Positions 34,307 through 52,651 of a stretch of 64,000 nucleotides of DNA are shown one piece after another. The position numbers and the translations under genes were made by a program. How positions within the stretch are numbered: the stretch's first letter is position 1; each line of letters begins with the position of its first letter. The stretch is from Sphingosinicella sp. LHD-64. Lineage in GTDB: Bacteria; Pseudomonadota; Alphaproteobacteria; Sphingomonadales; Sphingomonadaceae. The stretch covers positions 372,001-436,000 of the forward strand of contig NZ_JAVIFV010000003.1 of the NCBI RefSeq assembly GCF_031157375.1, written 5' to 3'. The notes below the pieces were generated by a model. The model was not told the origin of the DNA, ran no database searches, and saw only the letters and a program-made list of their open reading frames with translations.

Positions 34307-34321
34307 CTGATTTGATATAGA
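34307..34321. promoter_or_regulatory. Second-family operator between CoA-transferase and lyase genes
   Basis: CTGATTTGATATAGA is the reverse complement of TCTATATCAAATCAG, the best consensus for the element repeated across 34-53 kb. It lies 64 bases from the CoA-transferase start and 30 bases from the lyase start, so it can serve both divergent operons. Confidence 0.6.
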
Positions 34322-34350
34322 TATATGACAATAAAGCAAGCAGAGGTTTG

Positions 34351-35304
34351 ATGCAGACCGATATTCTGGTGAGCGAAGTGGGACCGCGTGACGGCCTGCA
34401 GAGCATCAAGACGGTGATGCCCACCGAGGCCAAGAAGGCCTGGATCGCCGCCGAAGCGGCGGCCGGCGTCCGCGAGATCGAGGTCGGCAGCTTCGTGCCC
34501 GCCAAGCTCCTGCCGCAGCTCGCCGACACGGCCGAGATCGTCGCCTTCGCCAAGACGATCCCGGGCCTCACCGTCGCGGTGCTGGTGCCAAACCTGAAGG
34601 GTGCCGAGGCGGCGCTCGCAGCCGGCGCCGACAAGATCACCCTGCCGCTTTCGGTTTCCGAATCGCACAGTCGTGCGAACCTGCGCCGCAGCCACGACCA
34701 GGTGATCGAGGAGGCGCAGGCGATCGCTGCGGCAATCCGCGCGCTGCCGGTGGAGCGGCGCCCGCATTTCGAAGGCAGCCTCTCCACCGTGTTCGGCTGC
34801 ACGATCGAGGGGGCGATTCCCTTGCGCCAGATCCTGGCCCTCGCCGAGCGGCTGATGGCGGCCGGCTGCGACGAGGTCGGCCTCTCCGACACGACCGGCT
34901 ATGCCGATCCCAAGGCGGTCCGGGAGATGGTGACGGCAGTGCGCGGCGTGGTCGGTGACAAGGCGCTGACCGGCATCCACCTCCACAACACCCGCGGCCT
35001 CGGCCTTGCCAACGTGCTGGCGGCGCTGGAAATGGGCCTCGACATGGTCGACAGCTCGCTGGGCGGCATCGGCGGCTGCCCGTTCGCACCCGGCGCGAGC
35101 GGCAATATCGTGACCGAGGATCTGGTGTTCATGCTGCAGGCGATGGACCTCAGGACCGGCATCGACCTCAAGAAGCTGCTCAAGGTCCGCAAGGTCCTCG
35201 CCGAAGCGCTGCCGGGTGAGCCGCTCTACGGCTTCACGCCCGATGCCGGCCTGCCGCTCGGCTTCGTTCCCGAACAATCGACCCGAAAGCTGGAGACTGC
35301 CTGA
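34351..35304 (+). CDS. HMG-CoA lyase-family enzyme (citramalyl-CoA lyase candidate)
   Basis: A 317-residue TIM-barrel lyase that splits a 3-hydroxy-3-methylacyl-CoA-type thioester into an acyl-CoA and a keto compound. The motifs are EVGPRDGLQ (metal Asp, substrate Arg), VGSFVPAKLLPQL, GIHLHNTRGLGLANVLAAL (metal histidines) and GGIGGCPFAPGASGN (catalytic Cys loop). The ATG at 34351 has CAGAGG 4 to 9 bases upstream. Classical HMG-CoA lyase serves leucine breakdown; here, next to a CoA-transferase and a LeuCD-like hydratase, citramalyl-CoA cleavage to acetyl-CoA and pyruvate is an attractive alternative. Four genes follow in coupled order. Confidence 0.87.
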   Translation: MQTDILVSEVGPRDGLQSIKTVMPTEAKKAWIAAEAAAGVREIEVGSFVPAKLLPQLADTAEIVAFAKTIPGLTVAVLVPNLKGAEAALAAGADKITLPLSVSESHSRANLRRSHDQVIEEAQAIAAAIRALPVERRPHFEGSLSTVFGCTIEGAIPLRQILALAERLMAAGCDEVGLSDTTGYADPKAVREMVTAVRGVVGDKALTGIHLHNTRGLGLANVLAALEMGLDMVDSSLGGIGGCPFAPGASGNIVTEDLVFMLQAMDLRTGIDLKKLLKVRKVLAEALPGEPLYGFTPDAGLPLGFVPEQSTRKLETA

Positions 35305-35981
35305 TGACCCTCGGCACCAAGATGATCCGGGAGGACAAGACGGCGCGCGAGCTGTTCGAGGCGGTGATGGCCAATCCGGCGCGCAACAAGTTCGGCTTCG
35401 GCGAGAAGCTCGCCATCGTGAACGTCGACGTCCAGCAGGCCTATACAAGACTCGACCTGTTCAAGACCGCCTATGAAACCGACCCCCGCCAGATCGAGCA
35501 TATCAACACCATCTCCCGCCTCGCCCGCGCCAAGGGGATGCCGGTCATCTGGTCGCGCGTCGCCTACAAGAACGATGCCGGCGACGCCGGCGTCTGGGGC
35601 ACGCGCACCGACACGCCCGATTCCCTCCAGAACATCAAATATGGCAGCGCGCGCCACGCCTACGATCCGCGCTGCGAGATCGACGCGAACGACCTCACCT
35701 ACACCAAGCGCATGCCCTCGGCCTTCTTCGAGACGCCGCTCGCCTCCTATCTGCGCTGGCACAAGGTCGACACCGTGGTGGTGACGGGCGGCAGCACGTC
35801 GGGCTGCGTGCGCGCGACCGCGGTGGATTCCCTCTCCTACGGCTTCCGCACGATCGTCCCGATCGAGACCTGCGCCGACAAGCATGAGAGCTACCATTTC
35901 GCGAACCTCACCGACCTCCAACTCAAATATGCCGATGTCGAGCCGGTCCAGGCCGTGATCGACTGGCTGGAGGCGCGCTGA
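35304..35981 (+). CDS. Isochorismatase-family amidohydrolase (NicF/N-carbamoylsarcosine amidase-like)
   Basis: A 225-residue cysteine hydrolase. The catalytic triad is visible: Asp in IVNVDVQQAYT, Lys in YTKRMPSAFF and Cys in VVTGGSTSGCVRATAV. This group contains maleamate amidohydrolase (NicF), N-carbamoylsarcosine amidase and ureidoacrylate hydrolase, all of which split an amide of a small acid. The start codon overlaps the lyase stop (TGATG). Between two imidase/allantoinase-like genes it would fit hydrolysis of the half-amide made from a cyclic imide or ureide. Confidence 0.87.
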   Translation: MTLGTKMIREDKTARELFEAVMANPARNKFGFGEKLAIVNVDVQQAYTRLDLFKTAYETDPRQIEHINTISRLARAKGMPVIWSRVAYKNDAGDAGVWGTRTDTPDSLQNIKYGSARHAYDPRCEIDANDLTYTKRMPSAFFETPLASYLRWHKVDTVVVTGGSTSGCVRATAVDSLSYGFRTIVPIETCADKHESYHFANLTDLQLKYADVEPVQAVIDWLEAR

Positions 35982-36907
35982 TGCGGGACGGCAAGACGGA
36001 TCCGGGCCTCTACGATTTCCGGCCCTATCGCGACCGGGCGAAGATCGAATGGCCAGAGGGCAAGACGGTCGCGGTCTGGGTGTCGCCGAACCTCGAATTC
36101 TACGAGATCGATCCGCCCGCCAATCCGCAGCGCAAGAGCTGGCCGAAACCCCATCCGGACGTCGTCGGCTACGGCCACCGCGACTATGCCAACCGCGTCG
36201 GCCACTGGCGCCTCGCCGAAGTCATGGAGCGGCACGGCTTCAAGGGCTCGGTCTCCCTCTCCGTCGCGCTCTGCCAGCATCATCCCGACGTGGTGGCGAA
36301 CGCCAACGATCTCGGCTGGGAGTTCTTCAGCCACGGCATTTACAACACCCGCTACAGCTACGGCATGGACGAGGCGCAGGAGCGCGCGATCATCGAGGAT
36401 TCGATCCGCACCGTGCGCGAGGCGACCGGCCAGACGATCAGGGGCTGGCTTGCCCCCGCCCTCACCCACACACCGCGCACGCTCGATCTCATCGCCGAAT
36501 ATGGCATGACCTATACGTGCGATCTCTACCATGACGACCAGCCAGGGCCGGTCCATGTCGCGAGCGGGCGGCTGATCTCGATGCCCTACAGCATCGAGGT
36601 GAACGACCATTACGGCTTCTTCGTCTACAACATGAGCCCGCGCGAATATGCCGAGACACTGATCCGCCAGTACGAACGACTGGCGGCGGAGGGTGCCGAG
36701 TCCGGCACCGTGATGTGCATCCCGCTCCACTCCTATCTGATCGGCCAGCCGCATCGGATCGGCCCGTTCGAGGAGGTGCTGCGGCATATCGCCGCCGACG
36801 GGCGCGCCTGGATCACCCGCTCCGGCGACATCGCCGACCATTTCCTCGCGCACGGCTATGACGACGCCGTCGCGGATGCCGCCCGCTACGCAAAGGCCGA
36901 CGCATGA
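35981..36907 (+). CDS. PuuE-like polysaccharide-deacetylase-fold hydrolase, copy 1
   Basis: A 308-residue NodB-fold protein of the PuuE allantoinase/cyclic imidase branch, which hydrolyses cyclic amides rather than sugars. Family features are WVSPNLEFYE in place of the usual Asp-Asp motif, the metal-binding GWEFFSHGIYNTRY, WLAPALTHTPRTLDLIAEYGM and CIPLHSYLIGQPHR. There is no signal peptide, so it is cytoplasmic. It is coupled to the isochorismatase gene (TGATG) and to the second copy (ATGA). Substrates known for this branch are allantoin, hydantoin-like rings and imides. Confidence 0.85.
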   Translation: MRDGKTDPGLYDFRPYRDRAKIEWPEGKTVAVWVSPNLEFYEIDPPANPQRKSWPKPHPDVVGYGHRDYANRVGHWRLAEVMERHGFKGSVSLSVALCQHHPDVVANANDLGWEFFSHGIYNTRYSYGMDEAQERAIIEDSIRTVREATGQTIRGWLAPALTHTPRTLDLIAEYGMTYTCDLYHDDQPGPVHVASGRLISMPYSIEVNDHYGFFVYNMSPREYAETLIRQYERLAAEGAESGTVMCIPLHSYLIGQPHRIGPFEEVLRHIAADGRAWITRSGDIADHFLAHGYDDAVADAARYAKADA

Positions 36908-37830
36908 GCCTCGATCCCGCCTATCTCGACTATCCCAAGCGCCGCGCAGGGATGGATCACGACCTCTATACGGCGTCCAACCTGTTCACCCGTCCGCCGG
37001 TCGCCTGGCCGGACGGCAAGAGCGTCGCAGTCGCGATCCTGGTCAATCTAGAATGGTTTCCGATTCTCCCCTCGGACACGCCATTCCGCGCGCCCGGGCA
37101 CATGCAGACCCCCTATCCCGACTATCGCCATTATACGGCGCGCGAATATGGCACGCGGGTCGGCTCCTATCGGCTGCTCGACGCCTTCGCGAAGGCCGGA
37201 GTGAAGGCGACGGTCGCCGCCAATGCCGCGATCGCCGAACGCTATCCCTCGATCATCGCCGACCTCCTCGCCGGCGGACATGAGATCATCGCCCACTCGA
37301 CCGACATGAACGGCACGATCGCGACCGATCTGCCGGAGGATGAGGAACGCGCGCTGATCCTGAAGGCCCGCGACACGTTCACCCAGGCGATCGGCACGGC
37401 GCCCCGCGGCTGGCAGTCGATCGCCCGGTCGCAGAGCTGGAACACGCCGCGGCTGCTGGTCGAGGCGGGTTTCGACTATATGTGCGACTGGGTGAACGAC
37501 GATCTGCCCTATGTCGCGACGACGAGCGCAGGCACGATCGTCAGCCTGTCCTTCAACCACGAGTTGTCGGACCGGCAGCTGATTGCGGTCCAGCAGCAGT
37601 CGATGGACAGCGTCGCGCAGCAGGTCGAGGACGCGTTCGACTGGCTGAAGGATGAGGCGATCCGTTTCGGCGGCCGCATCCTGCCGCTGACGCTGACGCC
37701 CTACATCACCGGCCTGCCCTACCGGATGGACGCGTTCGAAGCGCTGCTGGATGGCCTCGCCGCGCGGCCGGAAGCGTGGTTCGCGACGGCGGGGGAGATC
37801 GTCGACAGCTGGCAGGGTCAAGCCAGGTAA
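36904..37830 (+). CDS. PuuE-like polysaccharide-deacetylase-fold hydrolase, copy 2
   Basis: A 308-residue paralogue of the preceding gene, of the same length but quite divergent. It has AILVNLEWFPI, GGHEIIAHSTDMNGT, GWQSIARSQSWNTPRLLVEAGFDYMCDW and LTLTPYITGLPYR. The metal histidines are in the HS motif. The pair may form one hetero-oligomer or act on two ring compounds. It ends at the large inverted repeat at 37834-37917, which probably ends the transcript. Confidence 0.85.
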   Translation: MSLDPAYLDYPKRRAGMDHDLYTASNLFTRPPVAWPDGKSVAVAILVNLEWFPILPSDTPFRAPGHMQTPYPDYRHYTAREYGTRVGSYRLLDAFAKAGVKATVAANAAIAERYPSIIADLLAGGHEIIAHSTDMNGTIATDLPEDEERALILKARDTFTQAIGTAPRGWQSIARSQSWNTPRLLVEAGFDYMCDWVNDDLPYVATTSAGTIVSLSFNHELSDRQLIAVQQQSMDSVAQQVEDAFDWLKDEAIRFGGRILPLTLTPYITGLPYRMDAFEALLDGLAARPEAWFATAGEIVDSWQGQAR

Positions 37831-37924: not shown

Positions 37925-38239
37925 TCAGCCGCCGGCCTGCGCCCTCGGATCGAGCATGATCCGGAGCGCCCGGGTGAGGAGTGCGTCGGTCGCAGCCTGC
38001 CGCTCCAGCGCGACCTCGCCGTCGTAGCGGATGTCGCGCAGGTCCTCGACGCTACGGCCGCTCACCTCCGCCACCAATCGCTCCACCCGGTCTATCCGGT
38101 CGTTCGCCACGGCGAGTTCGACCAGCACCGCCAGCGTGATGTTCAGCACTTCCTCCGCTTCGCGCGAAGCCAGGCTCTGCGGCCGCGCGCCACGGGCAGT
38201 CGCGACCAGGGCGCTCAGCGCCTCCACCTGGGTGGTCAT
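37925..38239 (-). CDS. Small conserved-looking protein with predicted coiled coil
   Basis: A 104-residue protein with no recognised family. A helical core (VELAVANDRIDRVERLV) looks coiled-coil forming. Its ATG overlaps the methyltransferase stop (ATGA at 38236-38239), so the two are translated together. It resembles the small protein at 44605-44901 in the region ELxxxxxRxDxxERL, suggesting a family of small partners of the catabolic enzymes. Function unknown. Confidence 0.7.
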   Translation of the reverse strand: MTTQVEALSALVATARGARPQSLASREAEEVLNITLAVLVELAVANDRIDRVERLVAEVSGRSVEDLRDIRYDGEVALERQAATDALLTRALRIMLDPRAQAGG

Positions 38240-39360
38240 GCGGGCTTCGTCGCGCTGATCGCGTACCAGCGGTTGGCGCCGTGGATCGCCGGCAGATCGT
38301 GCTCGACGATCTCGGCCTCCGTGAATCCGGCCGCCGTCATGTCGGCGACGAGATCGGCATTCTGGTAGGTGTTCCAGTGCGCCTCGCCGTTGAAATGCGT
38401 GTCCCAGTCGCGCTCGACCTGCTGGACCAGGGTCGGCAGGCCGCGGATCGCGATGTCCTGGTGGATGACGATGCCGCCCGGCCGGACGACCCGGCGCGCC
38501 TCGCGCAGCATCGCACGGCGCTTCTCCGCGCCGATCTCGTGCATCAGATTGTGCGAGACGACGAGATCGAAGCTGTCATCCTCGAAGGTTAGGGCCGAAG
38601 CGTCCATCTGATGGAAATGGACGCCGACGCCGAGCGACTCCGCCCGGGCATGGGCATAGCGCAACATCCCCGCGCCGATGTCGATCGCATGGACCTCGGC
38701 CTCCGGATCATTCGCAGCATAGGCCGCCGAGGCCGCGCCGGCCGAACAGCCGATGTCGAGGATGCGCTTCGGCCGGACGCCGCCGAAATGCTCGTCCAGC
38801 AGCCGCAGCACGACGCCTGCCTTGCTGTCGCCCCGCCCGATCCCCTGGCCGAAGGAGAAGACATTGCCGCCGAGCTCATAGAGTGCGCCGGCGACGATGT
38901 CGTTGTCGCCCCGGTCCATCGCATAGCCGCCGGGCTGGAGGTGGATGTCGACACCGGCCACCTCGGGCGAGGGATCGTAAGTGGGATCGAGCGCCAGGCT
39001 GCCGAGCTTGCCGGGCGTCGCCGCAAGATCGCGCGCCGCCTCCGTCATCCGGTCGAGATCGCGGTAGATCGGCTCGCCGACCGAAACCCAGATCATCTCC
39101 TGCGCCGCCCGGTTGGTCGCGCTCCACAGGCGGTAGCTCGGGGACATGAGGAATGCCTGCTGGATCTCGGTCGGCGACTGGGGCTGGCGGCCATGCGCCG
39201 CCGCGAAGGCGGGCGCCGCCTCGGTGTCGAACACCGCGACGTTGCGCGGCCGGACATGGCGGTTGAGGAAACGGCGGAGCGCCACCACGGCACCCTGCCG
39301 ACTCTGCTCCTCGGCGCTGCTCCGCGGCAGCACCGCATGCTGAAGATCGCGCACCTTCAT
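38236..39360 (-). CDS. Class I SAM-dependent methyltransferase with N-terminal extension
   Basis: A 374-residue protein. Residues about 200-310 form a Rossmann-type methyltransferase: RILDIGCSAGAAS (SAM motif I), HAIDIGAGMLRYA, FDLVVSHNLMHEIG and VVRPGGIVIHQD. The first 190 residues are an extra domain with SYRLWSATNRAAQEM and GVDIHLQPGGYA, shared with the methyltransferase at 51325, so both belong to one unusual two-domain type. A second-family operator lies upstream (39433-39453). The substrate is unknown; a role in methyl transfer or O-methyl removal from an aromatic is speculation. Confidence 0.8.
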   Translation of the reverse strand: MKVRDLQHAVLPRSSAEEQSRQGAVVALRRFLNRHVRPRNVAVFDTEAAPAFAAAHGRQPQSPTEIQQAFLMSPSYRLWSATNRAAQEMIWVSVGEPIYRDLDRMTEAARDLAATPGKLGSLALDPTYDPSPEVAGVDIHLQPGGYAMDRGDNDIVAGALYELGGNVFSFGQGIGRGDSKAGVVLRLLDEHFGGVRPKRILDIGCSAGAASAAYAANDPEAEVHAIDIGAGMLRYAHARAESLGVGVHFHQMDASALTFEDDSFDLVVSHNLMHEIGAEKRRAMLREARRVVRPGGIVIHQDIAIRGLPTLVQQVERDWDTHFNGEAHWNTYQNADLVADMTAAGFTEAEIVEHDLPAIHGANRWYAISATKPA

Positions 39361-39432
39361 CGCCGGCTCTCCTTACGCTTCTCGCTCGGCACAGGAAAGC
39401 AGAGCCACGCACGAAGTGCAACAATTATGTTC

Positions 39433-39453
39433 TAATACTATAACAATTAGAGC
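39433..39453. promoter_or_regulatory. Second-family operator, divergent form, upstream of methyltransferase
   Basis: TCTAAT and ATTAGA (39433-39438, 39448-39453) form an inverted pair around ACTATAACA, and CTATAACAATTAG resembles CTATATCAAATCAG with one substitution and a one-base gap. It lies 73 bases before the methyltransferase start. Weaker than the other copies. Confidence 0.4.
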
Positions 39454-40379
39454 ATTTCGACGAGTTCGATGAGCTCCCCGGCCGGCCCCAGCAAAGTGCA
39501 GGCATGGCGACCGCCATAGGCCGATTCCGGCCTCGGCCGGGGCGGTATGATCGCCATCGCCGCGAAGGGCGTGAGATCGGCCACCTCGAAGCTCACCATC
39601 GCATTGCCGGGCGGCAGATGGCCCGGCGCGCGCGGCCGTGGCCCGGCGATGCGGTCCGGCCCGACCGGATAGCCGTCGAGCTCGATCAGGTTGCCATGCT
39701 GCTTCATCCCGATCGCGCTCAGCGAGACGGTCTCATCGGGCCCAAGGCCCTGCGCATCCTGCAGCACCTTCACCTTGCTCTGCCGCACGGGACGCTCGCG
39801 CAGCCGGAAATGATCGACATACCAGCGCAGCATCCTATCGAAATCAGGCCCGCCGGCGACGACGATGAAGGTGCGGCCGACGAAGCCGGACGGCCGGGGC
39901 AGGATCGACGTCTCCCGGTCGCCGCTCTCCATCGTGAAATAGAGGCATTCGCCGGCCGGCCCGACGACCTGCATGGCGACGATCGACGGCATGAACTGGA
40001 GCGGGCGCGGCGCACCGATCACCTCGAACGGCGCCGAGCGGATCTCCTCGGCAAGCCTGGGGACATCGTCGACGATGATCTCGAACGCGTTCCAGCCGAA
40101 GGTGGTGAGGGCGCGATAGCCCGGCACCGCCGGCGTCTCGACCAGCCGGACGAACACGTCCGACTCGCCCCGCGGCACCATCGTGCAGAAGCGCGCACCC
40201 GCGGCCGCCGGCGTGCCCCAGCTGCGCGCCAGCGAGGGATCGACCCAGCCGCGCTCGATCGTCCGGTAGCCGAGCCATTCGGCATAGCAGCGCTCCGTCG
40301 CCCCCAGGTCCGGCGTCGCCGTCGTCGTCGCCAGGATCCTGAGCAGGGCGGGATCGGAGGAAGTCGTCCAGTCACTCAT
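39447..40379 (-). CDS. VOC-superfamily protein (glyoxalase/extradiol dioxygenase fold)
   Basis: A 310-residue protein with two or more vicinal-oxygen-chelate modules. The N-terminal half has LRILATTTATPDLGATERCYAEWLGY, the usual first strand-helix of the fold, and GPAGECLYFTMES; the C-terminal half ends in the matching GPAGELIELVEML. Catalytic metal residues cannot be placed with certainty. The ATG at 40379 is listed; 40388 is an alternative start. It lies just downstream of the operator at 40437-40451 and before the methyltransferase operon. It may be an isomerase, epimerase or dioxygenase for the pathway. Confidence 0.78.
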   Translation of the reverse strand: MSDWTTSSDPALLRILATTTATPDLGATERCYAEWLGYRTIERGWVDPSLARSWGTPAAAGARFCTMVPRGESDVFVRLVETPAVPGYRALTTFGWNAFEIIVDDVPRLAEEIRSAPFEVIGAPRPLQFMPSIVAMQVVGPAGECLYFTMESGDRETSILPRPSGFVGRTFIVVAGGPDFDRMLRWYVDHFRLRERPVRQSKVKVLQDAQGLGPDETVSLSAIGMKQHGNLIELDGYPVGPDRIAGPRPRAPGHLPPGNAMVSFEVADLTPFAAMAIIPPRPRPESAYGGRHACTLLGPAGELIELVEML

Positions 40380-40436
40380 TCGCAGCATGCTCCCGGTGCG
40401 GGGTGACGCGAGGCGTACCCGAGATATTGTTCTACT

Positions 40437-40451
40437 TCTATATCAAATATA
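40437..40451. promoter_or_regulatory. Second-family operator upstream of the VOC gene
   Basis: TCTATATCAAATATA matches the consensus TCTATATCAAATCAG at 13 of 15 bases and is the centre of the inverted pair TTCTATAT / ATATAGAA. It lies between the GntR gene's 3' end and the VOC start. Confidence 0.65.
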
Positions 40452-40461
40452 GAAAGAACAC

Positions 40462-41238
40462 CTAAAGCAGCTCCGGCCCCACCTTGGAGGAACTGAGATC
40501 GAGACGGATCTGGTAGCGATCGGGACGGAACTGGCCGAGAATGTGCTGGACCGGCCGGCCGCTCACGTCGAGCACGGTGCGGCTGACCCGGAGGATCGGC
40601 GAACCGATGTCGATGTGCAGGCTCGTCGAAAGCCCCGCGTCGGCCAGGGTGGCCGAGATTGTCTGGGTGGCCGAGCCGATCTGCACCCCCGCCTCCTCGA
40701 TCAGGGTCAGCATCGGCGTCGACTTGAGCTTGGCGCGGGTCATCTTGGCGCCGACATCCTCAGGGATATAGCTGACGAAATGGGCAAGCGGCTGTCCGTC
40801 GAGCCAGCGCACGCGCACCACGCGCAGCACCGTCGCCCCCTCCTCGAGCTCCAGCGCCTCGTCGATCGGCGGGCGCGCCGGCACCTTGCCGACGTCAAGC
40901 AGCTTCACCTGCGTCGCCCGGCCGAAATTCAGCAGCGATTCGAGCGCTTTCTCGATATTCCCCTGCAACGGCTTGGCCGGCGAACGGTAGGTGACATGCG
41001 TCCCCACCCGCCGCTTGCGTTCGACCAGATGATTCTCGGCCAATTCGTCCAGCGCACGCCGGGCCGTGATGCGCGAGACGCCGAACTGGGCCGACAATTC
41101 CTGTTCGGTGGGCAGACGCGATCCGAATGCGCGCTCGCCGCTGGTGATCTCCTCGCGGAGCTGAAGGAAAATCTGATGATAAAGCGGAACGGCCTGCATG
41201 CGATCGATGGCCACCGCCTCTTCGTTTCTGTCCGACAA
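40462..41238 (-). CDS. GntR-family regulator, HutC subfamily (UTRA domain)
   Basis: A 258-residue regulator. The winged helix (about 15-80) has LYHQIFLQLREEITSGERAF and FGVSRITARRALDELAENHLVE, followed by the UTRA ligand-binding domain. The copy of the TATATCAAA element 27 bases before its start (41265-41279) implies autoregulation and makes this protein the best candidate for the second operator family. Most HutC relatives are repressors released by a pathway ligand. It is divergent from the HbpS-like gene at 41338. Confidence 0.9.
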   Translation of the reverse strand: MSDRNEEAVAIDRMQAVPLYHQIFLQLREEITSGERAFGSRLPTEQELSAQFGVSRITARRALDELAENHLVERKRRVGTHVTYRSPAKPLQGNIEKALESLLNFGRATQVKLLDVGKVPARPPIDEALELEEGATVLRVVRVRWLDGQPLAHFVSYIPEDVGAKMTRAKLKSTPMLTLIEEAGVQIGSATQTISATLADAGLSTSLHIDIGSPILRVSRTVLDVSGRPVQHILGQFRPDRYQIRLDLSSSKVGPELL

Positions 41239-41264
41239 GAACGCGTTCCTCCTGTTGTTCAGCG

Positions 41265-41279
41265 GCTATATCAAAGAAG
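41265..41279. promoter_or_regulatory. Second-family operator upstream of the GntR gene
   Basis: GCTATATCAAAGAAG agrees with TCTATATCAAATCAG at 12 of 15 bases, including ten contiguous bases CTATATCAAA. It lies 27 bases from the GntR start and 59 bases from the HbpS-like start. Confidence 0.65.
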
Positions 41280-41337: not shown

Positions 41338-41745
41338 ATGACTCAATACAAGCCTGTGCTGACCGCTGAGAATGCCCGGCAGATGCTGGATCGGGCGCTC
41401 GAGGCGGCGTGTGATGCGGGCCTCGCGATGTCGATCGCGGTGGTCGACGAGGGCGGCTATCCGCTTGCGTTGCAGCGGATGGACGGGGCCGGGCTGATGA
41501 CAGCGAAGGTCGCGATGGAGAAGGCGCGAACGGCGGCGCTGATCCGGGCACCCAGCGGACGCCTCGCCGACCGGCTGACGGCCGAGCCGGCGCTGCTGCG
41601 GTTGACCGACTATCTGCCGATGGCGGGCGGCTTGCCGGTGACCATGGAGGGGCGTTGTGTGGGCGCCATCGGGGTGTCGGGCGGCACGCCGGCGCAGGAC
41701 GAGCAGATCGGCGCGACGGGACTGGAAGCGCTGACGGGGTCATAG
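41338..41745 (+). CDS. GlcG/HbpS-family (DUF336) protein
   Basis: A 135-residue small protein of the GlcG/HbpS family. The conserved GLAMSIAVVDEGGYPLALQRMDGAG, KARTAALIRAPSG and a Gly-rich GAIGVSGGTPAQDEQI end are present. Members bind small ligands such as heme or cobalamin and are often next to catabolic genes; their enzyme role is uncertain. It is divergent from the GntR gene. The GATCATCGATG leader is short and its ribosome site is AAGGAT. Confidence 0.82.
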   Translation: MTQYKPVLTAENARQMLDRALEAACDAGLAMSIAVVDEGGYPLALQRMDGAGLMTAKVAMEKARTAALIRAPSGRLADRLTAEPALLRLTDYLPMAGGLPVTMEGRCVGAIGVSGGTPAQDEQIGATGLEALTGS

Positions 41746-44602: not shown

Positions 44603-44604
44603 GA

Positions 44605-44901: not shown

Positions 44902-44917
44902 GCCTCACCTTAGTCGA

Positions 44918-44951: not shown

Positions 44952-44968
44952 CCGTCGCTCTCCCCGCT

Positions 44969-47302
44969 TCAGAAGTCGTAGCGCAGGCGCACCATCCAGC
45001 TTCCCGGCGCATTCAGATAGGGGTAGATCAGGAAGGAGGTGATGTAGGTGTCGTCGAAGCAGTTGTTGCACTCGACCGCCAGCGACCAACGGTCCGGCGA
45101 ACGCAGGGTGATGCCGCCGTTGACGATGCTGTGCGCCTTCTGGAAGCCGCGCGGATCGTTGGAGGTCGCGACCCATGTGTCGCTGATATAGTTCCAGTTG
45201 ACCGCCGGCTGCAGCGTATAGCCGCCGCCGAGCTGCAGCTCGTAATTGACGCCCACCGTCGAGGTAAAGGATGGCGCGCGGGTCGGCTCGGCGATCTCGC
45301 CGGTCGGCGTGATGATGCCGGCGTTGCAATTGTTGGCGACGATGCCGGCGAGGCAGCGAGCCTGCTGGTCGAGCGTGATCTGGTTGATGTTGCGGTAGGA
45401 CGCGTTCTGCAGGCCGACCGACCAGTAGAGGTTGAGTCCGCGCACCGGCCGCGCGGAGATTTCCGCCTCGAGCCCGTAGTTCCTGAGATCGGCGACGTTG
45501 CGGGTCAGGTAGGTGATCGTGCCGGTCACCGGATCGAGCCCGCCGCCCGGAAGCTGCGTATCCTGATCGTTGAAGTAGAAGCCGGTCAGGTTCACGCGCA
45601 GCCGCCGGTCGAAGAATTCGGAGCGGACGCCGCCCTCGAACGACCAGAGCGTCTCGCGGGTGAAGGCCGCGGCCCCTTCCGGGAAGTAGGCGCGCGAGTT
45701 CCAGCCGCCCGACTTGAAGCCGCGCGTCGCCGAGGCGAAGAACATGAGGTCGGGGTTCGCCTGATACTGGATCGCAAAACGCGGCGTCCAGACACGCGAC
45801 CTCAGCTCCACCGGAATGCCGGCGTCGATCACGTCCTGCGTGTCGAACGGCTGGTTGCGCGGCGCGGCGCGCGGCAACGGGTTCGGATTGGGCGAGAAGG
45901 CGATGTCCTTGCGCTCATCCGTGTAGCGGATGCCGGCGGTGAGGGTCAGGCGATCGGTGAGGTGGAAGTCGCCCTGGAAATAGCCCGCGAACGCCTCGGT
46001 GTCGTTCGACATCAGGCGGTCGCCGTTGACCGTCGGCTGACCGACCAAGGGAATCGCGATGTTGGCGAAGTTCGTGTCGTTGGTCTCGTTGATATAGTAG
46101 AAGCCGGCGACATAGGTCAGGACGTCGTTGAACGCCTCGCCGGTGACCTTGATCTCCTGGCTGAACTGGCGGTGCCGGCTGTCGTTGACCAGCGGCGTCG
46201 CGGTGCCGCGATTGCCGCCCAGGAAGTCGACGCCGTCGAACCGCGCGCTCGCGCTGCTGATGCCGCCGAAGCTCTCCGTCATATATTCCTGGCGGAGGTT
46301 CCGGTAGCCGGTGATGAAGTTGATCGTCGCCGATCCGGCCTCGACCTCGAGGTTGGAGCTGACCGACCAGCTGTTGGCGGTGTTGCCCAGCGGGATATCG
46401 GCAAGGCCCTCCGAGACGAGCCCGGTGCCGAGCGATTGATCGGTCCGGAGCGGCGTGAAGCTGATCCGCCGGCCGGTCTCGGGATCGTAGAAATTGGGCA
46501 GGTTGGCGGCCGAACTGGAGACATAGTCGGCCGAGACGTCCCAACGGACGCTGTCCGACAGGAAGGCGCGCACGGCGCCGCGCAGGCCCCAATTTTCCTC
46601 GCCGTTCAGCCGCTCGCCGGTGACGAGATTGTCCACATAGCCGTCGGCGCGGATGTAATAGCCCGAGATCTTGGTGAGCAGCCGGTCGGTGACGACGGGC
46701 ACGTCGACCGAGCCGCGCAGCTGCACGCGGTCGAAGCGGCCGTAGCCGACATCGAGATAGCCGCCGAAATCGTTGCCGGGCTTGCGCATGATGACGTTGA
46801 TCGCGCCGCCGGTGGTGTTGCGGCCGAACAGGGTCCCCTGCGGCCCGCGCAGCACCTCGATCCGCTCGACGTCGAACAGCGCGAAATTGTTCGCGCCCTG
46901 GCGCGAGATGTAGATGTCGTCGACATAGGTGCCGATCGGCGGATCGAAGGTCGAGATCGACTCGGTGTTGGCGAGGCCACGCATCGAATAGGTGTTGGCG
47001 GTGCCGAGCGCGGTGTTGTTGTGGCCGATCAGATTGGGGACATAGTTGATCAGATCGAGCGTGTTGTTGATCTGCCTATTGGCGATGTCCTCGTCGGTGA
47101 AGGCGCTGACCGCGATCGGCACGTTCTGCAGCCGCTCGGTGCGGCGCTGCGCGGTGATCACGACCTCCTGCATGGACTCGTCGTTGCCCACCTGGTTCTG
47201 GGCCGACGCCCCCGCGTCTCCGCCATCCTGGGCGAACGCGTGAGTGGTCGACAGGAGCGAAGCCCCGACGAGCAGCGCGAACTTGTATTTCCGACACGTC
47301 AT
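44969..47302 (-). CDS. TonB-dependent outer-membrane receptor
   Basis: A 777-residue outer-membrane receptor. The ATG at 47302 is chosen because GGGGAAGGGG stands upstream and a signal peptide follows (YKFALLVGASLLSTTHAFAQ). The TonB box is EVVITAQRR, the plug contains VERIEVLRGPQGTLFGRNTTGGAI, and the barrel ends in WMVRLRYDF with terminal Phe. It belongs to the common sphingomonad aromatic-uptake type. A second-family operator lies 99 bases upstream at 47401. Confidence 0.92.
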   Translation of the reverse strand: MTCRKYKFALLVGASLLSTTHAFAQDGGDAGASAQNQVGNDESMQEVVITAQRRTERLQNVPIAVSAFTDEDIANRQINNTLDLINYVPNLIGHNNTALGTANTYSMRGLANTESISTFDPPIGTYVDDIYISRQGANNFALFDVERIEVLRGPQGTLFGRNTTGGAINVIMRKPGNDFGGYLDVGYGRFDRVQLRGSVDVPVVTDRLLTKISGYYIRADGYVDNLVTGERLNGEENWGLRGAVRAFLSDSVRWDVSADYVSSSAANLPNFYDPETGRRISFTPLRTDQSLGTGLVSEGLADIPLGNTANSWSVSSNLEVEAGSATINFITGYRNLRQEYMTESFGGISSASARFDGVDFLGGNRGTATPLVNDSRHRQFSQEIKVTGEAFNDVLTYVAGFYYINETNDTNFANIAIPLVGQPTVNGDRLMSNDTEAFAGYFQGDFHLTDRLTLTAGIRYTDERKDIAFSPNPNPLPRAAPRNQPFDTQDVIDAGIPVELRSRVWTPRFAIQYQANPDLMFFASATRGFKSGGWNSRAYFPEGAAAFTRETLWSFEGGVRSEFFDRRLRVNLTGFYFNDQDTQLPGGGLDPVTGTITYLTRNVADLRNYGLEAEISARPVRGLNLYWSVGLQNASYRNINQITLDQQARCLAGIVANNCNAGIITPTGEIAEPTRAPSFTSTVGVNYELQLGGGYTLQPAVNWNYISDTWVATSNDPRGFQKAHSIVNGGITLRSPDRWSLAVECNNCFDDTYITSFLIYPYLNAPGSWMVRLRYDF

Positions 47303-47400
47303 TTCTGCAGCCCCTTCCCCACTCATCCTGCGTGATGGTTTCCGTCAGGTTTCTTTTGCCGGGCAACGTGCCGCCGGGCTCGTCCTGTAATTGTCATATT

Positions 47401-47415
47401 CCTATATCAAATAGA
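47401..47415. promoter_or_regulatory. Second-family operator upstream of the TonB receptor
   Basis: CCTATATCAAATAGA matches the consensus in eleven contiguous bases, CTATATCAAAT. It lies 99 bases before the receptor start. Confidence 0.65.
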
Positions 47416-47520: not shown

Positions 47521-48342
47521 TCATGGGTCGACCAGCCGCTTCAGGAACGGCGCGACCAGCGCGCACCATTCGTCGGGGCGATCGAGGACCATGCCCGGAC
47601 CGCCGGGCAGTTCCGAATATTCCCAATCAGGACGGCAGTTTACGAGCCGCGCACCGGACTCGAAGACCGGGTCGGTGCGGCTGGCAACCACCAGCGTCGG
47701 CGCCCCGATCCGGCGTAGGTCGGCCGCGAAATCATAGTGCGGGATGGCCGAATGGCCATGCTCCTTCCAGGGTCCGTGGGTGAAGTAGGTAATGACCGAA
47801 ACGTGGACGGTCTCATCGCTCCAGTCGGGATCGCCGACCTTGCGGACCCAGGCCCAGCGGTCGGTCAAATGACTGCCATCGGATGCAATATCCTGCCGAT
47901 CGCCGAATCGGCCGATTCGCACCGCCCGCTCGTCGGCGGTGAAATAGGGGGCGTTGTCGAGGATCAGTCCGCGAATGAACTCCGGCCCTTCGGCCGCGAG
48001 CCGCCCTGCTGCCAATCCACCGCCGCGATGGCCGAGCACAATCGCCGGACCGGCGGCGAGTGCGACGAGCAGCGCGGCGAGGCTCTCCGCATAGGCCTCG
48101 ATGCTCGGCTCCCGCGGCGGATCGGACATGCCATGACCGGGCAGGTCGATCGCGATCGCACGAAAGCCGGCGGCCGCGATGCGCGGCAGGACGTGGCGAT
48201 ACTGGATGGACGCCCAGGGCGCCTGATGGACGAGCAGCACCGCCGGCCCATCCCCGTGGCTGCGATAGTGGAGCTGCCCGTCGCGACCATCGACATAGCC
48301 GCGCCGCTCACCCGGCAAGGCAGTCAGGATCGGCAGGGTCAT
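47521..48342 (-). CDS. Alpha/beta-hydrolase-fold protein lacking the catalytic Ser and His
   Basis: A 273-residue protein with the alpha/beta hydrolase fold (PAVLLVHQAPWAS, DLPGHGMSDPP). The nucleophile elbow reads GHRGGG, with Arg106 where Ser should be. The C-terminal segment, normally GH-like, reads ELPGGPGMVLDRPDEW with no His. Only the acid residue in SRTDPVF remains. It is therefore not a standard serine hydrolase; it may be a binding or non-hydrolytic enzyme. Its ATG overlaps the flavoprotein stop (ATGA at 48339-48342). Confidence 0.83.
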   Translation of the reverse strand: MTLPILTALPGERRGYVDGRDGQLHYRSHGDGPAVLLVHQAPWASIQYRHVLPRIAAAGFRAIAIDLPGHGMSDPPREPSIEAYAESLAALLVALAAGPAIVLGHRGGGLAAGRLAAEGPEFIRGLILDNAPYFTADERAVRIGRFGDRQDIASDGSHLTDRWAWVRKVGDPDWSDETVHVSVITYFTHGPWKEHGHSAIPHYDFAADLRRIGAPTLVVASRTDPVFESGARLVNCRPDWEYSELPGGPGMVLDRPDEWCALVAPFLKRLVDP

Positions 48343-49790
48343 GGCTTCGTGTCCAGCGGGATCAGGCGGTCGCCCAGCAGACGACCGAAGGTCATCGCCG
48401 GCGTCACCATCATGCCGCCGCACGCCGCCTGCCCCATCGTCTGGCTGGATCCCAGTATCTCGCCGGCGGCATAGAGATTGAGGATCGGCGAGCCGTCGCG
48501 GCGGATGACGCGAAGGCCATCGTCCACAGCAAGGCCGATCGCGCTCGAAATCGCGCTCGCCTGCATGCGGATGGCATGGAACGGCGCCTCGGCGATCGGC
48601 AGCGGCTTGTGCCGGCGACCGAAGAAGTCGTGCCCGGTCCCGACGCCGTAATTGTACCCGGCGATGGTCTTGGCGAGTCCGGCCGCGTCGATCCCGGCCT
48701 TGTGCGCCAATCCTGCAACGGTCTCGGCGCTCAGGAACGCCGGCCCAGCCCGCTCGAAGGCCGCGAGCATGTCCTCGTGCGTCCAGCCGATCACGATTGG
48801 CGGCGCCTCCTCGAGGATGCGGTGGTCGAAGACGATCCAGTAGCGGTGGTCCGGCTGGTGGAGCAGCGCCATCTCGCGCGCGTCCACGCTCTCCACATCC
48901 TCGCGCACGAAGCGCGCGCCCAACGCGTTGACGTAGATTTCCCAGGGCGGTCGCCGCTCCGGGAAGTGCTCGATCCGCCCGGCTGCCGTCGCGGGAAAGT
49001 CGTCGGTGTCGAACAGGGTGCCGAAATTGACGTAGACGTTCTCGGCGCCCCGCGCATAGCCACCGGCCGCCTCGCCGAGGCGCAGGCCGTCGCCGCGCGA
49101 CCAGGGCCAGGGCGCGGCATTGTATTGCGGATAGCCGTTCAGTTCGGCGAACATCTCGGGATTGCCGGCATAGCCGCCGCAGGCGAGGAGCACCGCATTT
49201 GCCGAGAAGCTGCGCTCGACTTCCTCGGCATCGCGGGCTTTCACACCGGTTACGGCACCTTCGGTATCCTGGATCAGTTCCGTCACCGAACAGGAGAGCC
49301 GCACATCGATGGCCCCCTCCGCCGCCAGCGCCTCGATGATCGGCACGAGCACATGCTTGATGCTGAGCGCGCCCTCGGCGCCCCAATAGTAGCGCGGCAC
49401 GCGATAGGGCTCGTGGCCGAAGCCGGTGATCGGATGTTCGGGCAACGGCGCAAGCCCCTCGGCGACCAGCCAATCGAACGTCTCCGCCGCATGATCGACG
49501 GCGAGACGGACGAGGCCGGGATTGGCGGTGCCGCGGCTGATCCGCATGACGTCCCCGAAATGAAGGTCGGGCGAATCTTCGATGCCGCGATCGCGCTGGA
49601 GCTGCGTGCCGGCCGCGCTCATCTGGCCGGTCGCCACCCAGAGCGAACCACCAAGGATGTCGGCATGTTCGAGCAACAGAACCCGTGCCCCACGCCGCGC
49701 CGCGAAGATCGCCGCCGGGAGCCCCGCCGAACCGCCGCCGACGACGATCAGGTCCCAGTGCCTGCGTTTCTCGTGCTTGGCCTCCGCCAT
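48339..49790 (-). CDS. FAD-dependent oxidoreductase (fumarate reductase/3-ketosteroid dehydrogenase-like)
   Basis: A 483-residue flavoprotein of the FAD_binding_2 family. LIVVGGGSAGLPAAIFAARRGARVLLLE is the FAD motif, ACGGYAGNPEM and the C-terminal LYAAGEILGSSQTMGQAACGG complete the family pattern. These enzymes dehydrogenate or reduce a carbon-carbon double bond in an acid or ring. The ATG at 49790 is chosen because GGAGG lies 5 bases upstream; 49802 lacks it. An operator of the second family lies at 49814, 24 bases upstream. Confidence 0.87.
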   Translation of the reverse strand: MAEAKHEKRRHWDLIVVGGGSAGLPAAIFAARRGARVLLLEHADILGGSLWVATGQMSAAGTQLQRDRGIEDSPDLHFGDVMRISRGTANPGLVRLAVDHAAETFDWLVAEGLAPLPEHPITGFGHEPYRVPRYYWGAEGALSIKHVLVPIIEALAAEGAIDVRLSCSVTELIQDTEGAVTGVKARDAEEVERSFSANAVLLACGGYAGNPEMFAELNGYPQYNAAPWPWSRGDGLRLGEAAGGYARGAENVYVNFGTLFDTDDFPATAAGRIEHFPERRPPWEIYVNALGARFVREDVESVDAREMALLHQPDHRYWIVFDHRILEEAPPIVIGWTHEDMLAAFERAGPAFLSAETVAGLAHKAGIDAAGLAKTIAGYNYGVGTGHDFFGRRHKPLPIAEAPFHAIRMQASAISSAIGLAVDDGLRVIRRDGSPILNLYAAGEILGSSQTMGQAACGGMMVTPAMTFGRLLGDRLIPLDTKP

Positions 49791-49813
49791 GTCGGCCTCC
49801 ATAATGTTCTGTA

Positions 49814-49828
49814 TTTATACCAAATCAG
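49814..49828. promoter_or_regulatory. Second-family operator upstream of the flavoprotein gene
   Basis: TTTATACCAAATCAG matches the consensus at 13 of 15 bases. It lies between the MFS stop and the flavoprotein start and is close to the start codon. Confidence 0.6.
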
Positions 49829-49905: not shown

Positions 49906-51264
49906 CTAGGCGGTCGCCGGTGTCGCGCCCACTGAGGCAGCCTCGTCCTTGGCGCGGGAGACCGCCGCCATCTCGTCGGCCGCGGCGCGATAGTGCCCCA
50001 GCCCGAAGGTGACGATGAGCAGGGTGGGCAGGCCGATCAGGAAGACGAAGCCGGAGAGCGCCATGCCGATGGTCGTCGGGTCTCCCGACCAGTCGACCGC
50101 GGCGCCGATCAGCGGCGGCCCGAGCAGCGGGCCGACCACGGTGATGATCGTGTTGAAGATCGCCACCGCGCGGCTGCGCATCTCGCCCGGCGTGATGAGC
50201 TGGAGCGCCGCCGGGCCGCCCGCGGTTGCCGCCGACTTGCCGATGAAGGCGATGAACATCAGCACGACCGCAAGCTCCGCCGTCGGCATGATCGGATAGA
50301 GCACGCTCGCCGGGATGCCGATGAACAGGCCGAGGATCAGGGTGCGCATCGCGCCGTCCTCGCGGCCCCTGCCCAACGCCTTGTTCGCCCACAGCGCCAA
50401 AGCGGTCCCCAACGGGCCGGCGGTGAAGTAGAAAATGCCGGTGACCGCGCCGATGGTGGCAATGTCCCAACCGTAGACGCGCTGGAACAGCGGCACGTTC
50501 CAGAAGGTGAGCGTGCTGAGCGCGAAATTGCAGGTCGCTCCGGCGATGATCACGCCGAAGCCACGCCAGCGGGCGAGCATGTACTGGAACGCGCTGATGC
50601 CGCTCTCGCCCTCGGGCGCGTCGGTGATCTTCTCGGTGCGCTTCGGCTCCCTCACGGTCAGCATCAGGAAGGCGAAGATCAGCCCCGGGGCGCCGACCAG
50701 CAGGAAGGTCGCCTGCCAGGGCTCGAACGGCCCCATACCGAGAATGGTCATCGGCCCGACCTCATGCAGGTGCGAGACCAGATAGCCGCCGACCAGGAAA
50801 GCGAGCCCGGCGCCAAGATAGGGTCCGGCCATATAGAGACTGATCGCCCGCGCCCGGCCCTCGCGCTTGAAATAGTCGCTGATGATCGAGACCGAGCAGG
50901 GGCTGACCACGGCCTCGCCCAGGCCAAGCCCGAAGCGGAACAAGAGGAGCGGCAGGAAGGCCATGGCGAAGCCGCTCATCGTCGTCATCGTACACCAGAA
51001 GACGATGCCGGCGATCAGCAGCCATTTGCGGCTGGAGCGGTCGGCGTACCAGCCGAGCGGGATCGACACCATCATATGGAAGACCGAGAAGGCCGGTCCG
51101 AGCAGCAGGCCCATCTGGAAGTCGCTGAGCCCCATCGACTCCTTGATCGGATCGACGAGCAGCGAGAGGATGAACCGGTCGAAATAGGACAGGATGAAGA
51201 CGAGCAGCAGCAGGACGACGACATACCAGCGATAGGCCGTGCTCGTTTGGTCGTTCACCTGCAA
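49906..51264 (-). CDS. MFS transporter
   Basis: A 452-residue inner-membrane permease of the same subfamily as the first gene of the window (RWYVVVLLLLVFILSYFDRFI, LLVDP, then GWYADRSSRKW as motif A). Length and helix pattern are normal. It lies 60 bases after the methyltransferase gene and probably shares its transcript. The substrate is not known; a pathway acid is likely. Confidence 0.87.
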   Translation of the reverse strand: MQVNDQTSTAYRWYVVVLLLLVFILSYFDRFILSLLVDPIKESMGLSDFQMGLLLGPAFSVFHMMVSIPLGWYADRSSRKWLLIAGIVFWCTMTTMSGFAMAFLPLLLFRFGLGLGEAVVSPCSVSIISDYFKREGRARAISLYMAGPYLGAGLAFLVGGYLVSHLHEVGPMTILGMGPFEPWQATFLLVGAPGLIFAFLMLTVREPKRTEKITDAPEGESGISAFQYMLARWRGFGVIIAGATCNFALSTLTFWNVPLFQRVYGWDIATIGAVTGIFYFTAGPLGTALALWANKALGRGREDGAMRTLILGLFIGIPASVLYPIMPTAELAVVLMFIAFIGKSAATAGGPAALQLITPGEMRSRAVAIFNTIITVVGPLLGPPLIGAAVDWSGDPTTIGMALSGFVFLIGLPTLLIVTFGLGHYRAAADEMAAVSRAKDEAASVGATPATA

Positions 51265-51324
51265 ATTCCCCTCTCGCGGGGCCGAAGCGCCCCTGCCCTT
51301 TTCAAACTCTGATGATGCCGCGCC

Positions 51325-52536
51325 CTAGTCGGCCAGGCTGCTCCCGAAGACGTACCAGCCGCCCTTGCCGTGCCGCGGGCGGCCCGGCTCGTCCCAGCCG
51401 AAGGCGCCATGGCGGTCCGGATAGGCGTTCACGTCCGGCAGGATCTGCGCGAAGCAGCGATCTCGGTCGAACCCGGCCTCGACGCAGAGCGCGATCGGGT
51501 CCTCCGCCCGGAAGGCGGTGTAGAAGGGCTCGTTGTTGTTGTCGGTGTCCCAGTTCCAGAAATAGTCTTCCCAGGCATCGACCAGACCGGTCGCGGGCAG
51601 CTCCTGATGGACCATCATCCCGCCTGGCTGGAGCAGGCGGCGGCATTCCTTGAGAACGCGCCGCGTCGCTTTCACCGGAATCTCGTGGAAGAAGAAGCTG
51701 GAAACGATCAGATCGAAATGCCCGTCCGGGAAATCGAGCGTCTCGGCATTCTGCTGGCTGAAATGGATCGGCACGCCCTCATGCTCGGCGAGCGCATGGC
51801 CGTAGCGCAGCAGCGGCGCGGCGACATCGACACCATACGCCTCTGCGCCCGGAAAAGCCTCGACATAGGGAAGCAGATTCTTGCCCGAAGAGGTGCCCAG
51901 GTCGAGGATGCGCAGGGGCCGGAAATCGGGCCGGGCATGCTTCACCCAGCGGCTGATCACCTTGGCGACGCCGCCCCAGCTGCGATGGTTCATGCTCGCG
52001 GTGAACACCCGCGCGCCAAGGCTCACCACCGCGCCCTGCGCGACGTCGTCGTCCGCATATTCGGAATGGAAGCAGCCCGGTGTCAGATGGACGTCGAGCG
52101 CGGTCACGTAGCGCGGCACTTCGAGCGCGGGATCGAGCCGAAGCGTCCCGCCCGCCGGGCTGCGCTCTGCCGCGTCACGCGCAACCTCGATCATCTCGGG
52201 CAGCGCACGCTCGACCGGCTCCTGCACCGACAGGAAGCACATCTCCTGCGCGTTGTAGCGCAGCACGCTGTAGAAACGGTACGAATCCTCGCCCGCCAGC
52301 GCCGCATCGATCGCGCGCGCCGTATCGAGCCGTTCGCCTTTCGCCTCGCGCGCCGGCTTCACCCGCTCTTCGAAATCTTGCTGGAGGCGCTCCGGCATGT
52401 CCTGGATGGCGAAGCGGCGCAGCGCGCTGCAGAAACGCTGCCGGCCGCGCTCGTCGAGCGTCGGCGTCGCCAGCGCTTCGATGTCCGGAACGGCCGAATT
52501 GCTGCGGTCCGTCACCGTGTCTGCGGGCGTTGCCAT
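51325..52536 (-). CDS. Class I SAM-dependent methyltransferase with N-terminal extension, second copy
   Basis: A 403-residue paralogue of the methyltransferase at 38236. The SAM site is RILDLGTSSGKNLLPY, followed by AYGVDVAAPLLRYG, FDLIVSSFFFHEIP and LLQPGGMMVHQELP. The N-terminal domain shares SYRFYSVLRYNAQEM and LDVHLTPGCFHSE with the first copy. The ATG at 52536 is chosen because AAGGAGA is placed 7 bases upstream; the longer frame is not supported. It is divergent from the monooxygenase gene with a palindromic operator between. Confidence 0.82.
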   Translation of the reverse strand: MATPADTVTDRSNSAVPDIEALATPTLDERGRQRFCSALRRFAIQDMPERLQQDFEERVKPAREAKGERLDTARAIDAALAGEDSYRFYSVLRYNAQEMCFLSVQEPVERALPEMIEVARDAAERSPAGGTLRLDPALEVPRYVTALDVHLTPGCFHSEYADDDVAQGAVVSLGARVFTASMNHRSWGGVAKVISRWVKHARPDFRPLRILDLGTSSGKNLLPYVEAFPGAEAYGVDVAAPLLRYGHALAEHEGVPIHFSQQNAETLDFPDGHFDLIVSSFFFHEIPVKATRRVLKECRRLLQPGGMMVHQELPATGLVDAWEDYFWNWDTDNNNEPFYTAFRAEDPIALCVEAGFDRDRCFAQILPDVNAYPDRHGAFGWDEPGRPRHGKGGWYVFGSSLAD

Positions 52537-52621
52537 CCTGCATCTCCTTCGGTTGCGCCGGAACGGTCTTCGCCATCCTTGTAGCGCCACGCATCTCTCG
52601 CGACAGCGGCATTTACGCCGG

Positions 52622-52651
52622 CTGATTAGTCTTATATCTAATACAAATCAG
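52622..52651. promoter_or_regulatory. Palindromic second-family operator between methyltransferase and monooxygenase genes
   Basis: The right half, 52637-52651, reads TCTAATACAAATCAG. The left half, 52622-52636, is its inverted copy in 12 of 15 positions, so the full element is a 30-base near-palindrome. It lies in the divergent gap and gives the clearest view of the full operator shape. Confidence 0.65.

Follow-up and report, generated by a model that had tools for sequence, protein, structure and literature searches.

A Wide-Spaced Dyad as the Predicted Operator of a GntR/HutC-Type Regulator in a Sphingomonad Catabolic Block

Known HutC Regulators and Their Operators

NagR (YvoA, Bacillus subtilis) and DasR (Streptomyces coelicolor) are repressors of the GntR/HutC type that consist of a GntR winged helix-turn-helix and a UTRA domain. 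A protein of the same architecture is encoded in a stretch of 64,000 nucleotides from Sphingosinicella sp. LHD-64 (NZ_JAVIFV010000003.1, positions 372,001 to 436,000), which is called the window here and in which positions are counted from the first letter. Seven copies of a 30-bp two-fold symmetric element, or dyad, lie at promoter positions in a catabolic block of this window (31-56 kb). The dyad is presented here as the predicted operator of the local regulator.

In the part of the study by Suvorova et al. (PMC4494728) that was available, the usual HutC site is given as NyGTMTAKACNy, in which GT and AC are 4 nucleotides apart, and FarR, NagQ, and SdhR are named as exceptions. In the dyad, GT and AC are 12 nucleotides apart. 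The distance from G to C is 15 bp, compared with 7 bp (positions -4 and +4) in the NagR operator as described in the available part of the structure report (PMC4333415). The canonical core GTMTAKAC has 0 matches in the window (0.38 expected), so no canonical HutC operator is found there.

As far as the excerpt of PMC4494728 goes, and when operators alone are compared, the nearest exception is SdhR. Its operator, TCTTATGTCTTATATAAGACATAAGA, is a wide palindrome with A/T flanks; the GTCTTA half-site is similar to the AGTCTTA arm of the dyad at 52622, and by our count GT and AC are 10 nucleotides apart rather than 12. In the same excerpt, operators of the YtrA subfamily are like the dyad in having conserved GT and AC far from the palindrome centre. 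However, YtrA proteins have short C-terminal domains, whereas the window regulator has a full UTRA domain. The dyad is predicted to be an unusual wide-spaced operator variant for HutC proteins. It was not found in the titles or abstract beginnings of the papers listed on GntR/HutC/UTRA regulators, sphingomonads, and palindromes, which is no proof that it is unpublished.

A Symmetric Element at Seven Promoters

A first-pass annotation had described seven related 15-mer elements in the block and had taken them as the mark of a regulon. All seven are real as dyads. The motif was under-read: in 7/7 sites it is a single arm of a longer element whose second arm follows across a fixed 4-bp spacer. 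The layout is 13 + 4 + 13 bases (30 bp), with a consensus of roughly WWTTGWYMTA-N4-TAKRWCAAWW, and when the sites are aligned on the right arm the second arm lies at the same distance in all seven. The half-site is near ATTTGTTATA, with G8 in 14/14 half-sites and T12 in 13/14. The arms match each other at 11/13 positions at 52622-52651, where a near-palindrome of 30 bases had already been noticed, and at 4-9/13 positions in the other six sites. The sites are listed below with their matrix scores.

34307-34336, minus strand: dyad site 1, between the divergent CoA-transferase gene (33107-34243, minus) and HMG-CoA-lyase-like gene (34348-35304, plus); 40.8 bits, leave-one-out 38.2; orthologous clusters have a counterpart in this position.
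39422-39451, plus strand: dyad site 2, upstream of the methyltransferase-like gene 38236-39360 (minus); 38.1 bits; also there in G074, G133, and G244.
40422-40451, plus strand: dyad site 3, upstream of 39447-40388 (minus); 36.8 bits; also in G074, G133, G244, G057, L089, and L091-L094.
41250-41279, plus strand: dyad site 4, between gntR (minus) and the HbpS-like gene 41338-41745 (plus); 25.0 bits, the lowest of the seven; leave-one-out 15.4.
47386-47415, plus strand: dyad site 5, upstream of the run of TonB receptor, 98-amino-acid, OYE-like, and SDR genes (47326 down to 41754, minus); 39.8 bits; counterparts also precede the orthologous TonB receptor in other regions.
49799-49828, plus strand: dyad site 6, upstream of the FAD_binding_2 gene 48339-49802 (minus), overlapping its first bases as called; 30.3 bits.
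52622-52651, plus strand: dyad site 7, between the methyltransferase-like gene 51325-52590 (minus) and the FAD_binding_3 gene 52669-53865 (plus); 31.2 bits, leave-one-out 14.8.

Scores were obtained with a symmetric matrix trained on the half-sites of these seven sites. The training sites score 25.0-40.8 bits, and the best other score in the window (67.9% GC) is 9.2 bits once overlapping registers of the seven are excluded. In 100 dinucleotide shuffles the top score was 18.1 bits and the mean of the maxima 7.4. When each site is left out in turn, it scores 14.8-38.2 bits and ranks 3rd to 8th in the window. A search of the window with the 15-mer, allowing at most 3 mismatches, recovers 5/7 sites (0.17 expected; maximum over 100 shuffles, 2) and does not recover those at 39433 and 47401. 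No Rfam match was found at gathering scores.

The site centres lie 11-79 bp upstream of start codons, and 4/7 are within 33 bp of one. All seven are at promoter positions, and sites of this kind recur at orthologous promoters in other genera, which supports the regulon proposed in the first pass.

The host genome (3.89 Mb in 8 contigs) was covered by two pattern searches rather than by a matrix scan. The 15-mer with 3 mismatches is found at 14 places, compared with 7 for the backward control. The other search used the loose core TTGNNNTAN4TANNNCAA with 1 mismatch and gave 17 places, 2 of them without a scorable locus. Together the searches contain all seven window sites, three of which are in both, and only these seven exceed 19.2 bits among the scored places. 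The best place scored beyond the window is a dyad-like sequence of 19.2 bits outside the cluster, at C1:971211-971230 (L058). Within the window, positions 1-30700 hold catabolic genes of another type (MFS, FAA hydrolase, RraA-like, TonB receptor) and no dyad that scores more than 9.2 bits.

The Local GntR/HutC-Type Regulator

40462-41238, minus strand: GntR/HutC-type regulator, proposed binder of the dyad (PF00392 and PF07702).

The N-terminal GntR winged helix-turn-helix matches PF00392 with 71.6 bits (cutoff 27), and the C-terminal UTRA domain matches PF07702 with 111.5 bits (cutoff 23.8). HutC and PhnF proper provide the best NCBIfam models, yet both scores are under the curated equivalog cut-offs (PhnF 119.9, cut-off 156.8; HutC 114.8, cut-off 220), by which the regulator is not an orthologue of either. 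Its relatives of solved structure are the putative transcriptional regulator 2ra5, which is nearest (3.9e-34), DasR (1.6e-23), and YvoA (1.9e-22). Among loci that have both a regulator relative and an organism name, 8/10 are from sphingomonads; the others are from Polaromonas (40%) and Micromonospora (28%).

In the structure of NagR on DNA, a pair of adjacent guanines is read by Arg48 and Arg38, and Gly69 of the wing touches the minor groove (PMC4333415, available part). Arg48 (NagR numbering) is common to NagR and all 24 sphingomonad rows aligned, one of which is a duplicate. Position 38 is Gln, Glu, His, or Met in these rows and position 69 is Arg, so that the Arg38 and Gly69 contacts of NagR are absent; the window protein keeps Arg48 and has Gln at 38 and Arg at 69. 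To judge from the sequences, one conserved G per half-site rather than two fits the missing Arg38. The spacing is not explained by it, since homologues without the dyad lack Arg38 too.

Single residues were also considered as determinants of the dyad. Loss of Arg38 was rejected as a marker, because Arg38 is absent in 29/29 distant homologues, with or without a dyad. Replacement of Gly69 by Arg was rejected as a required cause of the new operator: distant homologues that bear the dyad keep Gly (11/12) or have Ala (L187). Since these have the same dyad, a contact of Arg69 with the A/T flank is possible but not required. Ala51 is commoner in dyad-bearing homologues, but L201 has Val, and several proteins with Ala51 have no site.

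Co-Occurrence of Dyad and Regulator

Evidence for the regulator as binder can be obtained by comparing genomes with and without it. A sample of 298 genomes of the family was used, in which a homologue of the GntR protein (E 1e-30 or better) is present in 18. The strict dyad TTGWYMTAN4TAKRWCAA, which was defined after inspecting ten regions, occurs in 15/298 genomes and its backward control in 4/298. It is found in 13/18 GntR-positive and 2/280 GntR-negative genomes, and four of the 13 (G012, G156, G160, G178) had not been inspected before. The matrix was trained on the window only, and it recovers sites at the corresponding promoters of other genera. In 16 regions from 15 genomes with a GntR gene it marks 83 non-overlapping sites that score 20 bits or more, the 7 training sites included; the mirror matrix marks 4.

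A closer comparison is offered by the enzyme operon that these genomes share. Its PuuE-like gene (35981) is present in 55/298 genomes, of which 15 have a GntR homologue at 40% or more, 2 have a 35-36% homologue, and 38 have none. Scoring covered the 5 kb before and the 1 kb after this gene; G298 (73% GntR) was added to the 15, and G052 was left out, as its genome has no PuuE-like match. Every GntR genome has a site of at least 30 bits at the shared operon (16/16, or 15/15 without the window, the source of the matrix). At 25 bits or more, the dyad is present in 16/16 GntR genomes and at 0/39 GntR-less loci (38 genomes). At 20 bits or more, the counts are 16/16 and 1/39 (G250, 21.5 bits), and the mirror matrix gives 0/16 and 1/39. 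The regions of the GntR-less G267 and G113, and also of G022, are too short to reach -1.7 kb.

In Sphingopyxis panaciterrulae (G298, loci L095 and L182), the cluster is split over two contigs. The gntR gene, a monooxygenase gene, and an aldehyde dehydrogenase gene are on a contig of 200,647 bases, with gntR more than 80 kb from either end. The part with the CoA-transferase, HMGL, and PuuE genes is on a separate contig of 36,427 bases, at least about 80 kb from gntR, and carries a 35.5-bit dyad. This genome is the one clear case in which regulator and predicted target operon lie in trans.

Across 22 motif-bearing regions, 12 protein families occur in at least 15 regions each. Only GntR (21/22) has a recognised DNA-binding domain, and the region where it is missing is the second contig of G160. 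Two of the 12, proteins of 313 and 98 amino acids, have no Pfam match. A further family, found in 14 regions and without a window member, was left unannotated.

In 24 regions, a spacer of 4 is found at 91 sites, and every other spacer from 0 to 15 at 0-10 sites. Left out of this count were L088, which is the G133 locus, L090, which is nearly a copy of L089, and the first contig of L095. Among the 91 sites, all of at least 25 bits, G8 is present in 96%, T12 in 98%, and A13 in 91%, and G and C are never seen at positions 5-7; these frequencies are biased because the matrix selected the sites.

More distant homologues were sought in 385 genomes of the class at a threshold of 1e-40 or better. One is present in 32/385 alphaproteobacterial genomes, own genome included. 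Of 37 non-window matches, 29 had loci that were scored (about 1.5 kb each side), and longer flanks were taken for 14 of these. In 12/29, a dyad scoring 20 bits or more lies 17-177 bp before the gntR start; the mirror matrix reaches at most 16.6. In a tree, a single clade (100/100) unites the 22 sphingomonad proteins of dyad-type sequence; dyads are known for 21 of them and none for G052. The tree excluded L088, L090, and L097 (28% homologue), and L194 was treated as dyad-bearing on account of a site lying about 5 kb away from gntR. The dyad thus co-occurs tightly with the regulator clade, which strongly supports the earlier suggestion that the GntR protein is its binder, as a prediction.

Proposed Mechanism and Alternatives

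It is quite probable that the dyad is the operator of the local GntR/HutC-type regulator and that this protein controls the catabolic block. A GntR dimer would bind the two-fold symmetric site, with half-sites of about WWTTGWYMTA facing each other across the 4-bp spacer. Bound near start codons, it would shut off roughly seven to ten transcription units for catabolism and uptake, until a pathway compound on the UTRA domain releases it from the DNA. Here we infer that binding is direct, that the effect is repression and not activation, and that a pathway intermediate acts as the inducer. Repression is assumed because of the behaviour of the subfamily and the nearness of the sites to start codons.

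A number of observations weigh against this assignment. The two GntR-negative genomes with a strict match are G068, where it lies inside a called gene (44% GC), and G135, and a rough gene caller puts 11/83 sites within genes. In G299 and G178 the loose pattern is rarer than its backward control, and gntR of G156 reads with one in-frame TGA. The genomes compared at the shared operon are related, so the Fisher value overstates independence. Two genomes with 35-36% homologues, G030 and G022, have no site at that operon, the region of G022 being too short to be decisive. At L075 (G052:C2:839301-859300), a 47% GntR has the same recognition residues and no dyad within the surrounding 20 kb; the G052 genome has one near-match elsewhere. 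The 22 motif-bearing regions were mostly fetched for their GntR, so its presence is largely by construction, and the LeuC-like enzyme is as widespread (21/22). Finally, G021 and G160 were rejected as trans cases, since regulator and operon are near contig ends and an assembly break in one cluster suffices.

Several other readings of the dyad can be given. Two GntR dimers may sit side by side, one per arm, which would keep the regulator and change the stoichiometry. The 15-bp distance from G to C (7 bp in NagR; PMC4333415, available part) is hard to square with a pair of DNA-binding domains sitting next to each other in the same groove, and extra boxes near GntR sites are reported in the excerpt of Suvorova et al. 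(PMC4494728). Yet no arm holds the canonical GTMTAKAC dimer site, and the spacer length is sharply peaked at 4, which makes this arrangement unlikely, though worth some weight. It is rather improbable that GntR acts from these sites as an activator or dual regulator instead of a repressor. The distances to start codons leave the promoter geometry undecided, and a promoter scan, with 3 promoter-like sites compared with 2.2 in shuffles, did not place any promoter, so repression is put forward by analogy. On the other hand, a position within 33 bp of a start codon, as in four of the sites, is unusual for an activator, and NagR and DasR, the best-known solved relatives, are repressors.

Very improbable is the binding of the dyad by a different, unlinked regulator, such as a CRP/FNR-like protein, with GntR as a bystander. 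Such a protein is brought to mind by the half-sites TTGAT/ATCAA, which we take to resemble those of CRP/FNR; the site next to gntR is not conserved in close orthologues, and G052 has a GntR without nearby sites. Against this, the same operon in GntR-less family genomes is without the dyad at 25 bits, the strict dyad is nearly confined to GntR-bearing genomes, and distant gntR homologues have it before their own gene. That the sites are nothing more than A/T-rich promoter DNA to which no particular protein binds can hardly be believed. They are indeed A/T-rich in a window of 68% GC, and in the own genome the loose core has 17 places compared with 60 for the backward pattern, a count that also speaks against our assignment. 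The loose core is common by chance and not enriched genome-wide, and the full dyad is the specific feature, with scores above 19.2 bits at only the seven sites among the places scored. The symmetry, the fixed spacing, scores far above shuffles, the mirror-matrix control, and the dependence on GntR at the shared operon largely refute the A/T-rich reading.

The assignment, which is strong as a prediction, has several uses. It predicts which regulator acts, at which exact operator, and on which targets in a catabolic cluster; the core operon of this cluster is present in 55/298 sampled family genomes. With the operator, more targets can be looked for, and these would help to narrow down the substrate. 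The operator is also a well-sampled wide-spaced site in a subfamily whose specificity rules came from short-centre sites, and it allows one to test in what way half-sites that lie on different helix faces come within reach of HutC dimers.

Possible Autoregulation

The dyad copy reported at 41265 had been placed 27 bases from the GntR gene, which is the correct distance to the called start, and had been read as autoregulation. The site is present, at 25 bits. However, in 11/12 of the nearest distinct orthologues nothing above 5 bits precedes gntR; the twelfth, L095, has 17.9 bits. Among 10 family relatives at 40-50% identity, 3 have at least 25 bits before gntR and one has 19.2. Autoregulation is thus possible in the window strain and not conserved in its closest relatives, for which reason it cannot carry the argument for GntR as binder. 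An ancestral autoregulation may have disappeared from the nearest relatives, with the window strain keeping or regaining it.

Proposed Target Operons and Pathway

Genes and families of the block were taken from gene calls and Pfam. The following operons are proposed as targets.

31084-34243, minus strand: CoA-transferase III, LeuC-like and LeuD-like hydratase.
34348-37830, plus strand: HMGL-like lyase, isochorismatase-type hydrolase, two PuuE-like/polysaccharide deacetylase-family hydrolases.
37925-39360, minus strand: methyltransferase-like gene, gene for 104 amino acids.
41754-47326, minus strand: TonB-dependent receptor, 98-amino-acid protein, OYE/FadH-like reductase, SDR.
49906-52590, minus strand: methyltransferase-like gene, MFS transporter.
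52669-56089, plus strand: FAD_binding_3 monooxygenase, Amdase/Asp-Glu racemase-family (arylmalonate-decarboxylase-like) protein, aldehyde dehydrogenase.

The FAD_binding_2 enzyme encoded at 48339-49802, downstream of site 6, is likewise counted among the proposed targets. The methyltransferase-like proteins 38236-39360 and 51325-52590 are one family, each with an N-terminal part of about 180-210 residues without a Pfam match. The protein 39447-40388 (minus strand) has no Pfam match; by eye, we take it to be VOC/glyoxalase-like.

The core of the cluster, at 31084-37830, encodes the LeuCD-like hydratase, the CoA-transferase, the HMGL-like lyase, the isochorismatase-type hydrolase, and the two PuuE-like hydrolases. 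A LeuC-like relative is present in 10/14 of the distant regions fetched with more flank. In L216 and L218, two distant alphaproteobacterial loci checked with Pfam, a lyase of the PEP-mutase/ICL family lies beside the LeuC-like hydratase. L216 also has HyuA/HyuB-type hydantoinases and an isochorismatase, and L218 an isochorismatase relative and two PuuE-like relatives. These loci look like a related pathway with a different last step.

Literature searches on cyclic imide hydrolase with polysaccharide deacetylase, on the enzyme set in sphingomonads, on imidase, half-amidase, and maleimide, and on dimethylmaleate hydratase and dimethylmalate lyase gave nothing usable. The hydratase with the PEP-mutase/ICL-type lyase presumably parallels the enzyme pair dimethylmaleate hydratase/dimethylmalate lyase known from nicotinate fermentation, and the PuuE-like and isochorismatase-like hydrolases, as we suppose, an imidase and a half-amidase. 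Because of these comparisons, our guess for the substrate is an alkylated five-ring imide or lactam that gives an alkylmaleate. A bilirubin reductase model reaches 239.9 bits on the OYE-like protein (cut-off 750) and a mycofactocin OYE model does better (438.5, cut-off 793), so a tetrapyrrole source is only a guess.

Tentatively, and with more doubt than confidence, an alphaproteobacterial HutC clade with the wide operator (G-to-C 15 rather than 7 bp) and no Arg38 contact may control clusters for opening the ring of an alkylated five-membered cyclic imide or lactam, which might be a maleimide left by tetrapyrrole breakdown. The alkylmaleate would be split via the LeuCD-like hydratase and either the CoA-transferase/HMGL-like pair or the PEP-mutase/ICL-type lyase.

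A betaproteobacterial locus, L096 (Polaromonas sp. OV174), has relatives of LeuCD, the CoA-transferase, HMGL, and FAD_binding_3, together with a 40% GntR that has Gly69. It has no clear dyad at gntR, and one dyad of 29.3 bits lies about 5 kb away.

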